IMG/VR virus record: IMGVR_UViG_3300037076_000091
Coordinates: 1 to 30,565 of that record
Direction: 5' to 3' (one strand)
From: a virus
DNA length: 30,565 bases
Part shown: positions 1,929-30,565 of the stretch, in pieces
Position numbering within the stretch: position 1 is the first letter of the stretch
How the letters are laid out: each line of letters opens with the position of its first letter
Made by a program: the position numbers and the translations under genes
The notes under the pieces: model-generated
What the model was told of the DNA's origin: nothing
What the model saw: only the letters and a program-made list of their open reading frames with translations
Database searches by the model: none

Positions 1929-2639
1929 TCAGCCCGGATTCCCCGGCTCGCGCTGCCCATTCCACTTCTGATGACCGTAATCGTGATCGATGATGACGGT
2001 TGGCGAACTTCCGAGCAGTCGCGTTGACCAGTTGATACAGGAGGGCAGGAGCGGGCATTTGAGCCGGTGCGCGACCAGACTCCATACGTATTGCTCAAGA
2101 ACGTAGGTGACAGGAGGGGTCCATGGGACAACAGGCTCAAGCTCGTGCCACGCCGTGCGGTACATCGAGGCCAGATCCCTACGTCGGGGCGATGCTGCAA
2201 ACCACATGACGCCGCCCGACCGCTTCAGAACGTCCGACCATTCGCCCGTCATAAACGCGCCGACGTCGTAGAGGATACACCCGGAATCCGTTGTCATGGC
2301 GATTGGAACGCCGGCAAACTTCGCCAGCACCGGCCGCGGATCGCGCAGGATCGTCGCGTCCAAGTCGATCATCAGAATGTCTTCATCCGCAGGGAACGCC
2401 GCGAGCGCCGCCAGCGTGACAGCCGGCTTCACGTCGAACGGGTACTTTGGGCGGATGCAGTCATGCAGGAAGGCCGTGTCGAACGCGAGGCAGTCAATTC
2501 CCAGTACCTTTTCCGGCCGGTCCGTGATGATTGCTACGTCCGCGCCAAACGAGTGATCGCGTGTCCACGTCAGCCACTTTTCCGCCGTAGGGCGGTAACG
2601 CTCCATTGCGGGACCATACCAGGGGGCGACGATTTTCAT
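1929..2639 (-). CDS. glycosyltransferase-like protein (GT8-like), downstream paralogue
   Basis: This 236-residue protein looks like a GT-A fold glycosyltransferase. IDLDA at 91-95 supplies a metal-binding DxD motif on a hydrophobic strand. The C-terminal HDYGHQKWNG (219-228) resembles the HxxGxxKPW metal/diphosphate motif of GT8 enzymes without its proline. It is a clear paralogue of the next gene upstream, sharing DCIRP, PFDVK, PIAM, GVMWF, AWHEL, LEQY and HDYGHxKWNG. It starts with a 4-base ATGA overlap with that gene, so both are probably co-translated. Its strand opposes terL and portal, which suggests an acquired cassette. The substrate is unknown; host surface glycan or virion modification are possible roles. 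Confidence 0.7.
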   Translation of the reverse strand: MKIVAPWYGPAMERYRPTAEKWLTWTRDHSFGADVAIITDRPEKVLGIDCLAFDTAFLHDCIRPKYPFDVKPAVTLAALAAFPADEDILMIDLDATILRDPRPVLAKFAGVPIAMTTDSGCILYDVGAFMTGEWSDVLKRSGGVMWFAASPRRRDLASMYRTAWHELEPVVPWTPPVTYVLEQYVWSLVAHRLKCPLLPSCINWSTRLLGSSPTVIIDHDYGHQKWNGQREPGNPG

Positions 2640-3337
2640 GAGTTGGCGGGCGCTTTATCGCCGTTCCATTTGCCGTGACCGTAATCGTGTTCAATCACTG
2701 CCCCGGGGCATGGACCAAAAAACCGGCTGGACCAGTTCATCGAGGCCGGAAGCGTTGCGCCGCCCAGCCGGTGATTTACGAGCGTCCATGCGTACTGCTC
2801 AAGGAGGTGGGGGAATGGCGGAGACCATGGGAAGCGCGGAAGGGCTGCGAGTTCGTGCCATGCCGCACGGTAAAGGGCTGGGATCTTCGCCCGCAGTGGC
2901 GACGGGCCAAACCACATGACGCCCGCGCAATGCTTGGTCACGTCGGCGAAAGGCGCGTCCATCTGAATGGAGCGGAAGAAAATGAGCGCCCCATGGTCGG
3001 CAGGCATGGCGATGGGGTCCGCTGCGAAGTCGGCAAGGACTGCGGCGGGATTTGCCATCAGCAGCGCGTCAAGGTCGATGATCAACGCGCCTTCCGCCGG
3101 ATCGATCTTGCCGAGCGCATCGCAGATCAACGCGCCTTTCACGTCGAAGGGATGGCCCGGGCGGATACAGTCGGAGAATGGCTTGGCTGAACAGAGCAGG
3201 CTATGCCCCGGGGCGGGGTTATCGCCGATGAATCCAACGAGTGCCCCGTCGCGGTACCGTCGAGCGGCATTGAGCCATGTATCGGCGAACGAACCAAACC
3301 GTTTTACGTCCCCAAAGTAGGGCGCAAGAATCATCAT
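2636..3337 (-). CDS. glycosyltransferase-like protein (GT8-like), upstream paralogue
   Basis: From this start the product has 233 residues. IDLDA lies at 87-91 and HDYGHGKWNG at 217-226, matching the downstream paralogue along the whole length. The frame is open up to 3436, but similarity to the paralogue begins at MMILAPYFG, which lines up with MKIVAPWYG, so the start is placed at 3337 (3334 is equally possible). No clear Shine-Dalgarno is seen. It leads a two-gene minus-strand operon divergent from the methyltransferase, with only about 50 bp between the starts. Function is inferred from the DxD and HxxGxxK-like motifs; the sugar donor and acceptor cannot be read. Confidence 0.7.
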   Translation of the reverse strand: MMILAPYFGDVKRFGSFADTWLNAARRYRDGALVGFIGDNPAPGHSLLCSAKPFSDCIRPGHPFDVKGALICDALGKIDPAEGALIIDLDALLMANPAAVLADFAADPIAMPADHGALIFFRSIQMDAPFADVTKHCAGVMWFGPSPLRAKIPALYRAAWHELAALPRFPWSPPFPHLLEQYAWTLVNHRLGGATLPASMNWSSRFFGPCPGAVIEHDYGHGKWNGDKAPANS

Positions 3338-3387
3338 GGCGAAAATGAGGTTTGCAAAAGTGCGCGCTTCCGTCAATAGCGGGGTCG

Positions 3388-4056
3388 ATGCCCGAAGGAT
3401 GTTTCTTGGACAACGATACGGATTTCCCGCTCCCATGGCACATGACGCGGAGCGAACGAGCGACCTTACATGACATTCTGCGCAGGCTACGGCCGGTGAT
3501 CTCGCTGGAGATTGGAACGTATCAGGGCGGATCGCTTCAGGTCATCGCGAGATATTCACAGAGAGCGTTTACGGTGGACTGTGACCCAGGGTCGGCGACC
3601 GCAGCAGCGCAGTTCCCAAACGTGGAGTTTCACTGCGGCGATAGCGCAGTTGTCGGTCCTAATCTGATCCTTGCGTGCAATGCGCTTGGCTCTCTTCAGT
3701 TCGTCTTGATTGACGGAGGCCACTCGGAAGAGACTGTACGTCAGGACATCAACGCTGTGTTGAAGATCATCCCCACCGGCCGGATCGTCATTCTTCTGCA
3801 TGACAGCTTCAATCCCGGCTGCCGGGCCGGAATGAGATCGGCCGCATGGGAAGCGTGCCCCTTCTGCCACTACGTTGAACTCGACTACATCGCCGGCGTC
3901 TATCACGAGCAGGCGGTCGGCAATGCCGAGGCCGGCAGCATGTGGGGCGGATTCGCGCTCGCCGTACTGAGCGCCGAGCGCAGGACAACGCCGTTGACGG
4001 TCTCGGAGGCGCAGCGGTTCGTTTTCGAGGCCGTCAGAGAGAAAGCACACCTATGA
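3388..4056 (+). CDS. class I SAM-dependent methyltransferase
   Basis: This 222-residue protein has the Rossmann methyltransferase pattern: motif I EIGTYQGGS at 41-49, an acidic residue after the next strand (D64), DGGHSEE at 109-115, and LHDSF at 137-141. The DGGH and LHD pair is typical of the Methyltransf_24/cephalosporin-hydroxylase-like group that often methylates sugars or small molecules. The frame is open from a TTG at 3352; ATG 3388 is preferred. It ends with an ATGA overlap into the portal gene, so it is coupled to the late operon, yet it diverges from the two glycosyltransferase-like genes. A joint role in glycan modification is inferred from position. Confidence 0.75.
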   Translation: MPEGCFLDNDTDFPLPWHMTRSERATLHDILRRLRPVISLEIGTYQGGSLQVIARYSQRAFTVDCDPGSATAAAQFPNVEFHCGDSAVVGPNLILACNALGSLQFVLIDGGHSEETVRQDINAVLKIIPTGRIVILLHDSFNPGCRAGMRSAAWEACPFCHYVELDYIAGVYHEQAVGNAEAGSMWGGFALAVLSAERRTTPLTVSEAQRFVFEAVREKAHL

Positions 4057-23885: not shown

Positions 23886-25529
23886 ATGAAAAGACTTCTC
23901 GCTGTTCTCGCGCTTCTCCTTCCGTCAGTCGTTCTCGGCACGTCTCCGACGCCCGGCGGTTCGCTGGGAGTGGCAGTCAGCTCCAACGGGGCGCACCAAT
24001 TTCTTCAGGTCGATTCTCTGAACAACCTGATCCCATCGATTTTAGCGGTCGGATACGGATTTGCCAGCCCGATTCCTGCCCCGGCTGGAAGCGTGGCGAT
24101 CGCGGTTGATCCCAGCGGCCATTACCAGTTCCTTCAGGTGGACTCGACGGGTGCGCTGATCACGAACGTTACGAATAACTCCCCCGTCCTCGCCTCCCTT
24201 GCCTCGCCGGCACCGAGCGCGGGGGCAACGGCGGTTGGCGACACCGGGGCCAATGCCGGCAAGTGGGTTGTCGGAACAACAAACTCCCCTATCATCGCAA
24301 GTGCCGTGATCGGGCAAACAGGTTTAATCGGCATTCCTAACCTATTAACAATAGGTCGAAATATAGTTAATCCCGCAAGTAACGACAATTGCGCGTATAT
24401 TTTGTGTTGGCCTAGTTTCACAACTCCGGGGACATTAACTGTCAACACGTTCGCCACTAGAACGGAAAATCGAGTAATTATCGCGACAGGCACACAACTG
24501 GGTCCGTTCGCGTCTTTACCGGGGGCACAATCCGGCGAATCCAACGCTGTATGGAGCGTAGCTCTACGGAACTATAACGGCGCGGCTGACGACGACGGCG
24601 GAAAGCTCACCAACCAATATGCTTTTCGCGGAGAATATGGACATTTCAGCTCTAACGCCGCCGCCACTCCGCAAACGTTAAACTCCGTTGGACTTTTCTT
24701 GCGACCGTTTTGCTATACGGGAACTATCACAAACCTATATGATCTCTACATAGCGAACGATAGGGAGCCGTTTGCGGGAACCGTGACAAACCACTACGGG
24801 TTTTACTCTCCAAGCACGACCGCCCAGCACTACATGGCAGGGAATTTGTTTCTTGGCCTGACCCCCGCGACTTCCGCGTGGAAACTAAGCGTGCTCGGGG
24901 AAACGATGTTTGGCAACACCGCAGCCAACGCATTTTACACTCAGGGGTCATCGATCAATGGACAGTATGGAACCAATGCGAACGGCTCGATGTGGCTGAA
25001 TTTCGCTGGCTACAATGGTGGAACTACCCAGTTTCGAGACACCAAGATTGGAGACGGTAAGAATGCCGCTGTAGTAACCTGCACCGGGAGCACTAAGGGA
25101 GTGGCTTTCGCGGGGGCGATAACTACTACGGGTATCACCATGGGCAGCGGCACGGGCACCGTTACCGCAGCAAGCGGGGTGTTCTCAGTCACGTCCGATA
25201 AGCGGGCAAAGAATCCTCATGGGGATTTCACCACTGGCCTCGATGCGATCCGTCAGCTTCACCCCGTCACTTACGATTTCAAAGCTGACCCGAAGCACCT
25301 TACTCGCGCAGGATTCTACACGCAGGACGTTGAGCCGCTGATTCCCAATGCCGTGTTCCACGACTCCCCGGACGGAATGGCGAGTCTTGATGACCGCCCG
25401 ATTCTCGCAGCTATCGTAAACGCCGTTAAGGAACTGGACCAGCGATCACAAGCCGACTGGTTCGCCCGTGGACTGGCCGGACTAGCGCTCGCCATGGCAA
25501 CCGCAGCCTACTTCAGGAAACGCTCATGA
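23886..25529 (+). CDS. S74-type tail fibre with signal peptide and C-terminal membrane segment
   Basis: The 547-residue protein starts with a clear signal peptide (MKRLLAVLALLLPSVVLG). Two similar units follow, GSLGVAVSSNGAHQFLQVDS and GSVAIAVDPSGHYQFLQVDS (within about 24-95), then a long variable beta region. The C-terminus is a peptidase S74 intramolecular chaperone: SDKRAK at 437-442 with the Ser/Lys dyad S437 and K442, then GLDAIRQLHPVTYDF, GFYTQDV and AIVNAVKEL. It ends with a hydrophobic helix (about 525-541) and RKRS. Signal peptide and C-terminal anchor are unusual for a fibre. Part of the middle (about 24330-24800) is less GC-rich, suggesting mosaic origin. Confidence 0.8.
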   Translation: MKRLLAVLALLLPSVVLGTSPTPGGSLGVAVSSNGAHQFLQVDSLNNLIPSILAVGYGFASPIPAPAGSVAIAVDPSGHYQFLQVDSTGALITNVTNNSPVLASLASPAPSAGATAVGDTGANAGKWVVGTTNSPIIASAVIGQTGLIGIPNLLTIGRNIVNPASNDNCAYILCWPSFTTPGTLTVNTFATRTENRVIIATGTQLGPFASLPGAQSGESNAVWSVALRNYNGAADDDGGKLTNQYAFRGEYGHFSSNAAATPQTLNSVGLFLRPFCYTGTITNLYDLYIANDREPFAGTVTNHYGFYSPSTTAQHYMAGNLFLGLTPATSAWKLSVLGETMFGNTAANAFYTQGSSINGQYGTNANGSMWLNFAGYNGGTTQFRDTKIGDGKNAAVVTCTGSTKGVAFAGAITTTGITMGSGTGTVTAASGVFSVTSDKRAKNPHGDFTTGLDAIRQLHPVTYDFKADPKHLTRAGFYTQDVEPLIPNAVFHDSPDGMASLDDRPILAAIVNAVKELDQRSQADWFARGLAGLALAMATAAYFRKRS

Positions 25530-29394: not shown

Positions 29395-29625
29395 TCACAG
29401 CGCCGCCTCGTTGTTGAACGATTTCCCCGCCGTCACCCGATACACCGGGAAGGGAAGTTGCTTCTCCAACCAGTCGAGCCAGCGATACACGCTGGCCGGC
29501 TCGTCCTGCGTGTCCGCGAAGATGGCCGCCGCCGGCATTGGGGTGACCTCTCCAGCTGCCGCCATCAAAGCCAGCGTGCTGCTCTGGACACCGGCGCCTA
29601 GCGACAATATGTGAATTGGTTCCAT
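29395..29625 (-). pseudogene. truncated PP-loop (PAPS reductase-like) protein
   Basis: The 76-residue product begins MEPIHILSLGAGVQSSTLAL, carrying the PP-loop SLGAGVQSS. IFADTQDEPASVYRWLDWLE then matches the first ATP-pyrophosphatase module of the phage PAPS-reductase/DndC-like family. Full-length relatives have about 250-350 residues; here the frame stops after NNEAAL and another gene starts 13 bases later. Nothing corresponding to the rest is seen downstream. It is probably a remnant, although a shortened nucleotide-binding protein cannot be excluded. In phages this family is linked to nucleotide or DNA modification. Confidence 0.6.
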
Positions 29626-29671: not shown

Positions 29672-30565
29672 TCATGTTATCCTCACTTCTATTCGTGGAC
29701 CGTTCCCATCGTCCCATCGCTTCGTCAAAGTACCGTCTGAAACGGTGCAGTCCTGAGCGAATAGGGAGTCGAGAATGGCCTTGTCGATGTTGTCGCGGTC
29801 GGGTTTCAGCCGGTGCGGGTTGCCGCGTAGCAGATCTCGCTTCTTCTTGGAGTACGATGCAGGGAAGGCGAACCAGGCGCACCAACTGACGGAGAATGGA
29901 GACGTGCTGCCGGATTCGGCGGTAACATTGCTGCCGGAGTAGGCGTGGACCACGCTGCCGGATTCGGCGTGGACCACGCTGCCGGATTCGGCGGTAACCA
30001 TGCTGCCGGATTCGGCGGTAACATAGCTGCCGGTGCGGGCGGTTACAGAGCTGCCGGTGCGGGCGGTAACCATGCTGCCGGATTCGGCGGTAACATAGCT
30101 GCCGGTGCGGGCGGTTACAGAGCTGCCGGTGCGGGCGGTAACATTGCTGCCGGATTCGGCGGTAACCATGCTGCCGGATTCGGCGGTAACATGGCTGCCG
30201 AAGTAGGCGGTAACATAGCTGCCGGTGCGGGCGGTTACAGAGCTGCCGGTGCGGGCGGTAACATTGCTGCCGAAGTAGGCGGTAACATTGCTGCCGGATT
30301 CGGCGCAGACCGTGCTGCCGGCATAGGCGGCTCGTGCGCGGTCTGCCCATTCACGGTATCTCAGAACGGCCGGCCGCTTCGCCCATTTGTCGCGCTGCGT
30401 CATGCGCGGCTTGCCGACCGGATTGCCGGGAATCGTGAAGCAGCACTCTCCTCCGGCGTTGAATACTGGTGCCGCTGGCAACTGTGGCACTTTCTGCATC
30501 GGTTGCCCGTCCTGCCGGCTGAAAAGGTTCGGGTTGAGTCGGCGGACTGACTCGCTGGCGTTCGC
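29672..30565 (-). CDS. RusA-like Holliday junction resolvase with octapeptide-repeat insertion (5' partial)
   Basis: From ATG 30499 the product has 275 residues. Residues 20-58 (FTIPGNPVGKPRM, then LRYREWADRAR) and 199-275 match RusA: KPDRDNIDKAILDSL gives D234, D236 and K240, and VSDG gives D255, the expected metal-binding acidics. Between them, 59-194, are 17 copies of an 8-residue unit (RTGSSVTA, ESGSMVTA). RusA proteins are normally about 120-150 residues. The frame stays open upstream of ATG 30499 to the window edge and reads SVRRLNPNLF, so the true start may lie outside. It resolves recombination intermediates and leads the leftward block as seen here. Confidence 0.8.
   Translation of the reverse strand, partial: ANASESVRRLNPNLFSRQDGQPMQKVPQLPAAPVFNAGGECCFTIPGNPVGKPRMTQRDKWAKRPAVLRYREWADRARAAYAGSTVCAESGSNVTAYFGSNVTARTGSSVTARTGSYVTAYFGSHVTAESGSMVTAESGSNVTARTGSSVTARTGSYVTAESGSMVTARTGSSVTARTGSYVTAESGSMVTAESGSVVHAESGSVVHAYSGSNVTAESGSTSPFSVSWCAWFAFPASYSKKKRDLLRGNPHRLKPDRDNIDKAILDSLFAQDCTVSDGTLTKRWDDGNGPRIEVRIT
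29894..30325 (-). repeat. 24-bp tandem repeat array inside rusA-like gene
   Basis: Seventeen full 24-bp units and one partial unit lie head to tail and in frame, each coding for x-x-G-S-x-V-T-A. On the plus strand a typical unit reads GCGGTAACATTGCTGCCG plus six variable bases. Variants fall into a few classes (ESGS, RTGS, YFGS), and blocks of two or three units recur almost unchanged, indicating recent slippage or recombination. No spacers are present, so it is not a CRISPR array. Confidence 0.9.

Follow-up and report, generated by a model that had tools for sequence, protein, structure and literature searches.

A phage RusA-family resolvase with an octapeptide array, predicted to form a beta-solenoid, in the loop after helix 1

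The resolvase gene and its surroundings

The stretch of DNA analyzed here (the window) is an entire IMG/VR record of 30,565 bases. The source is a contractile-tailed phage, as a tail sheath gene was found, and the sequence is unlikely to be complete. An open reading frame (ORF; 29672–30565, 297 codons up to the contig end) occupies the minus strand at its right end and remained open through both halves of a RusA protein and the repeat between them. The ORF matched Pfam RusA (PF05866; E=2.4e-9, residues 194–275, 38.3 bits, above the cut-off of 22.8) and PHROG 140, 'RusA-like Holliday junction resolvase' (E=5.6e-16). On these matches it is classed as a RusA-family resolvase, and junction cutting is predicted.

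An ATG at 30499 would give a protein of 275 amino acids. The contig ended 66 bp upstream of this ATG, with the ORF still open across 30500–30565 on the minus strand, and by eye this upstream extension resembled the N-terminal extension of the RusA protein of L001, a relative (ASEAFKRMN / ASESVRRLN). Given the open frame at the contig end and the extension in common with L001, the real start codon probably lies beyond the contig. Directly downstream of the gene, positions 29395–29625 of the minus strand encode a 76-amino acid fragment of phosphoadenosine phosphosulfate (PAPS) reductase, apparently a truncated remnant, covering positions 160–228 of the 460 in the PHROG 424 profile.

The N-terminal RusA half (residues 19–60; 30320–30445, minus strand) contains strand 1, the conserved GKPRMTQRDKWAKRP, and helix 1; the alignment and AlphaFold2 both placed it there, with the strand at 19–24 and the helix at 42–60. 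The C-terminal half with the active site (residues 202–275; 29675–29896, minus strand) was delimited by Pfam, AlphaFold2 pLDDT, and Foldseek. The catalytic residues D234, D236, K240, and D250 (29750–29800, minus strand) were invariant in an alignment with 15 relatives, and a profile match to Escherichia coli RusA (1q8r) paired them with D70, D72, K76, and D91. The preliminary description had held that both halves, with the three Asp and the Lys, are intact and that the insert lies in the loop between the first helix and the next strand. Pfam, PHROG, the alignment, and the pairing with 1q8r bear out the former; for the latter, the alignment put the array at this short loop, in agreement with AlphaFold2. 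The flanks aligned cleanly with the relatives, save for a 2-residue gap in the strand after the array. Comparison of the flanks with those of L028 and L001, codon by codon, gave pS values of 0.65–0.80 and pN values of 0.12–0.22. Since silent differences greatly exceeded replacement differences, we conclude that purifying selection acted on both RusA halves, at least up to the origin of the array.

A terminase scan for sister phages found only two distant relatives (35–49%), and the best match to the major head protein was 34% (Bdellovibrio phage phi1422). Because all of these matches were distant, there was no close phage for comparison. Elsewhere in the record, two tandem paralogous proteins, 44% identical and without a Pfam match, are encoded at 1929–2639 and 2636–3436 (minus strand), flanked by the terminase and portal genes, which lie on the other strand. 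They adjoin a Methyltransf_24 gene (3352–4056, plus strand), an arrangement that looks like a moron cassette. A fibre-like protein with a C-terminal Peptidase_S74 intramolecular chaperone domain is encoded at 23886–25529 (plus strand).

The octad array and its predicted fold

The array comprises 17 in-frame octapeptide units of 24 bp each (residues 60–195; 29915–30322, minus strand), as defined by TRF, autocorrelation, and AlphaFold2; TRF itself reported a 24-bp array at 29905–30305. The consensus is x8-x1-G-S-x4-V-T-A, and an 18th 'GS' runs on into the C-terminal half. Autocorrelation at lag 8 was 0.70, compared with a maximum of 0.25 in 2000 shuffles (lags 1–32). The 17 repeats and 136 residues given in the preliminary description were recovered, with one refinement: G, S, V, and A were invariant in all 17 octads, and the T position was H in two units and C in one.

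All units were exactly 24 bp, with no frame-breaking indel among the 17, and the codons GGC, AGC, and GCC were each identical in every unit. The variable codons were x4 and a coupled pair, x8/x1 (GAA-TCC, CGC-ACC, TAC-TTC). Among octads, which are not independent units, pN (0.25) exceeded pS (0.13), and the replacement differences fell mainly at predicted exposed positions. A diversity-generating retroelement, with the variable codons as its mutagenic cassette, was weighed from the codon pattern alone and dropped. The octads contained 8 Glu, 6 Arg, and no Lys, for a net charge of about −2. On every second octad x8 read Y-R-E-R-E-R-E-Y, which could form a ladder of salt bridges if one coil comprises two octads. 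The longest exact internal repeat was 81 bp; with one assembly and a repeat of this length, the presence of the array is credible and its exact copy number less so.

Structure prediction was performed with and without relatives. With a 16-sequence alignment, AlphaFold2 produced helix 42–60, octad strands over 63–185 (one 4-residue strand per octad), and strand 202–210. Block means of pLDDT were 82–96 in the catalytic core and mostly 76–85 in the octads, and fell below 50 at residues 187–199. From a single sequence, the octads scored 88–95 over most of their length, with a solenoid to about residue 194 and a poor core. AlphaFold2 is generous with solenoids for near-perfect repeats. The pTM was only 0.49, and the placement of the rod against the core was not fixed by the model. 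Foldseek matched 1q8r and 2h8c with a probability of 0.99–1.00, although E was at least 0.04 for PDB entries. Of its 12 viral matches at E<=0.001 most were RusA, and beta-helix folds and one DUF7666 protein were matched with weaker support.

The octads are thus predicted to fold as a regular beta-solenoid with or without the RusA alignment. The beta-solenoid arm proposed earlier was supported in both runs, and the models showed a regular solenoid rather than the disordered repeat that would have spoken against it, except at residues 187–199 of the alignment-based run. Within x4-V-T-A, the strand of each octad, V and A would face the core and x4 and T outward, the same pattern as in models of ice-nucleation solenoids (PMC9418140). 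With two octads and about 4.8 Å per coil, as in those models, we infer a solenoid of about eight coils, roughly 35–40 Å long. The entry and exit of a linear solenoid are at opposite ends, a point that the preliminary description had not raised; therefore, the chain must return, by a linker or by domain swapping. The drop in confidence in the last octads fits either, and residues 187–199 (29903–29941, minus strand), given their pLDDT in the alignment-based model, are a probable return linker to strand 2.

Occurrence and possible origin of the array

The window protein is known from one metagenomic assembly only. No such insert was present in about 80 distinct RusA relatives from IMG/VR, GTDB genomes, phages, and plasmids, and the stretch from KPR to DN was 70–81 residues in nearly all of the 61 distinct sequences measured. 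The genome searches took in two sets, 388 genomes from the phylum of L028 and 369 from the class of L029 (about 757 in all), and yielded no second RusA with an octad insert; the 12 RusA genes in the latter set had ORFs of 124–250 amino acids and no split match. Two IMG/VR scans for a fusion pattern, in which one or two octads stand at the appropriate spacing from the RusA DxDN motif, returned no other case, and a DNA-level pattern of the 24-bp unit had no match elsewhere. A tblastn search with the octads alone also found nothing, perhaps because of its low-complexity filter. One candidate, L019, was considered as a contig broken inside an array and rejected, as in L016 and L017 this gene has an ordinary loop. 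Among the relatives and genomes searched, the insert is a singleton. The search for other fusions of RusA with the repeat thus yielded no second case, in keeping with the earlier remark that no described RusA is known to have such an insertion.

Octads of the same class were found in DUF7666-type proteins of Mycobacterium and Gordonia phages, in microvirus proteins, and in several IMG/VR proteins. This class is widespread in phages and resembles ice-nucleation repeats, a relationship that the preliminary description had missed. Many matches to the octad pattern were low-complexity reading frames and were rejected as solenoids. Among the octad proteins examined, none other than the window protein had octads inside an enzyme. 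In two bajarodmic microviruses from rodent faeces (L023 and L030), a protein consists almost wholly of A-x-x-G-S-x-V-x octads. The nearest array, about 67–77% identical to that in the window, was in L027 (IMGVR_UViG_3300048599_000888), where seven near-identical KSGSNVTA/ESGSNVTA octads lie at the contig end (5720–5881, minus strand). They form the C-terminal end of a protein that begins beyond the contig edge; a DNA polymerase gene follows immediately downstream, and a search of the contig yielded no RusA.

The preliminary description had also missed an apparent likeness between the array and the native RusA loop at the same site. In many relatives this loop reads P-E-S-G-x-H-V-T-F, much like the octad E-S-G-S-x-V-T-A; in Citrobacter phage Chris1 it is AESGSHVTF. 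When whole proteins were compared with the array, the best match was the relative's own insertion-site loop in 61 of the 80 distinct RusA relatives, at one exact position in 49 of them. Octad arrays of eight other phage proteins gave 3–28% in the same test. Column-permuted arrays reached the observed fraction in 10 of 300 trials, the relatives not being independent. The nearest subfamily (L001, L028, and L002) was without the loop motif. Over all octads, a generic phage octad profile scored 10.2 bits vs. 2.7 for the RusA-loop profile; on the latter the ES octads reached 8.8, higher than any of 130 generic octads (maximum, 7.6). It is possible, although we hold it only tentatively, that the solenoid was born in place, by tandem duplication of RusA's own turn-plus-strand into ESGSxVTA octads. 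Because the relatives are not independent, the nearest subfamily is without the motif, and the octads fit the generic profile, such self-seeding is suggestive only. If the rod did grow from the enzyme's own loop, it would be a concrete example of how a beta-solenoid can start in a globular enzyme.

Possible roles and comparison with known systems

The reading we prefer, without great confidence, is that of a RusA-type resolvase, with both halves and the active site preserved, whose loop grew into an octad solenoid rod for association or docking. Tandem duplication of the 24-bp unit would have lengthened the surface loop between helix 1 and strand 2 into the solenoid. Each subunit of the RusA dimer would carry one rod, which starts where helix 1 ends, and its chain would return to strand 2 through about 13–15 extended residues. 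The rod would have no part in catalysis itself and would most likely serve as a protein–protein or self-association surface joining resolvase dimers to one another or to a replication or recombination partner. In support of this model, the invariant V and A alternate with exposed positions, and the variation falls at x4 and x8/x1. Without a working return linker, a linear solenoid in a loop would strain the RusA fold. The DNA-binding arm suggested earlier appears disfavored, because the array is slightly acidic and has no Lys. Should the predicted fold be right, the core fold of a small dimeric resolvase accommodates a rigid rod, which the enzyme either tolerates or uses, and such insertion would be a route for resolvases to gain clustering or docking surfaces.

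A serious rival to this self-association or docking rod, although we rate it as unlikely, is a recent, tolerated, functionless expansion by slippage or unequal exchange in one phage, the enzyme still working or starting to decay. The insert is a singleton among the roughly 80 relatives and 757 genomes, with no close phage relative to show selection keeping it; the identical GGC, AGC, and GCC codons point to recent expansion, and the adjoining gene is a truncated fragment. However, the RusA halves are intact, none of the 17 units has a frame-breaking indel, and the core V and A are perfectly kept while the exposed positions vary. An assembly artefact, with either the number of copies wrong or the flanks falsely joined across the repeat, is the least probable explanation. 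The contig is metagenomic, with the 81-bp exact repeat inside the array and its end 66 bp from the ATG, and has no second record; yet the two flanks complement each other as halves of a single RusA and share a reading frame, and the units, all 24 bp, include differing variants through which long k-mers could resolve the array, so that the copy number alone may err.

Two further alternatives accept the rod and give it other work. In domain swapping, the N-terminal half of one chain would complete the C-terminal half of a second, and the products would be linked dimers or chains of RusA. The last octads unwind when the core is built, whereas without the core the solenoid extends to about residue 194, so that the intramolecular path looks strained; but in the monomer model the core forms with a normal linker, about 13 residues long, and we regard swapping as improbable. 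We also doubt, if not quite so strongly, that the rod is a junction-probing stalk like that of RecU, which is likewise a resolvase with an inserted projection, on an unrelated fold. The RecU stalk contacts the junction and RecA and is essential for recognition and distortion of the Holliday junction (PMC5314769). It is, however, a short beta-hairpin (residues 56–89) with an experimentally shown junction-binding role, compared with an insert of 136 residues in the window protein, whose net charge and lack of Lys would be poor for DNA contact.

With RusA proteins (PF05866; 1q8r and 2h8c) the window protein has in common both halves of the fold and the three Asp and Lys, and with phage RusA relatives the KPRMTQRDKWAKRP motif; it differs in having the octad array where they have a short loop between helix 1 and strand 2. 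The DUF7666-type proteins (Squirty gp51, Spooky gp76, ThetaBob gp59, and MW202485) and the bajarodmic proteins share x-x-[GS]-[SA]-x-V-x-A octads with it, but their arrays follow a short N-terminal segment or make up nearly the whole protein and are not inserted in an enzyme fold. The DUF7666 domain of Squirty gp51 (PF24703) had no match in the window protein. L027 shares [KE]-S-G-S-N-V-T-A octads and differs in their position at a protein C-terminus.

The ice nucleation repeat (PF00818) shares the A-x-x-G-S-x-x-T octad register, the predicted solenoid, and outward Thr, and its octad periodicity and beta-solenoid recur in the window array, the fold there being predicted; on the window protein the Pfam profile scored 18.5 bits, below the cut-off of 27. 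Ice nucleation proteins have TxT, SLT, and YGS motifs in 16-residue coils, modeled for PbINP as a beta-solenoid (PMC9418140). Instead of those motifs in tens of such coils, the window array has G-S-x-V-T-A in 17 octads only. Unlike ice nucleation proteins, it has Val at the core position and lies inside an enzyme, without an outer-membrane context. If its fold is as predicted, the window protein links a widespread, little-studied class of phage octads with ice-nucleation-like folds.
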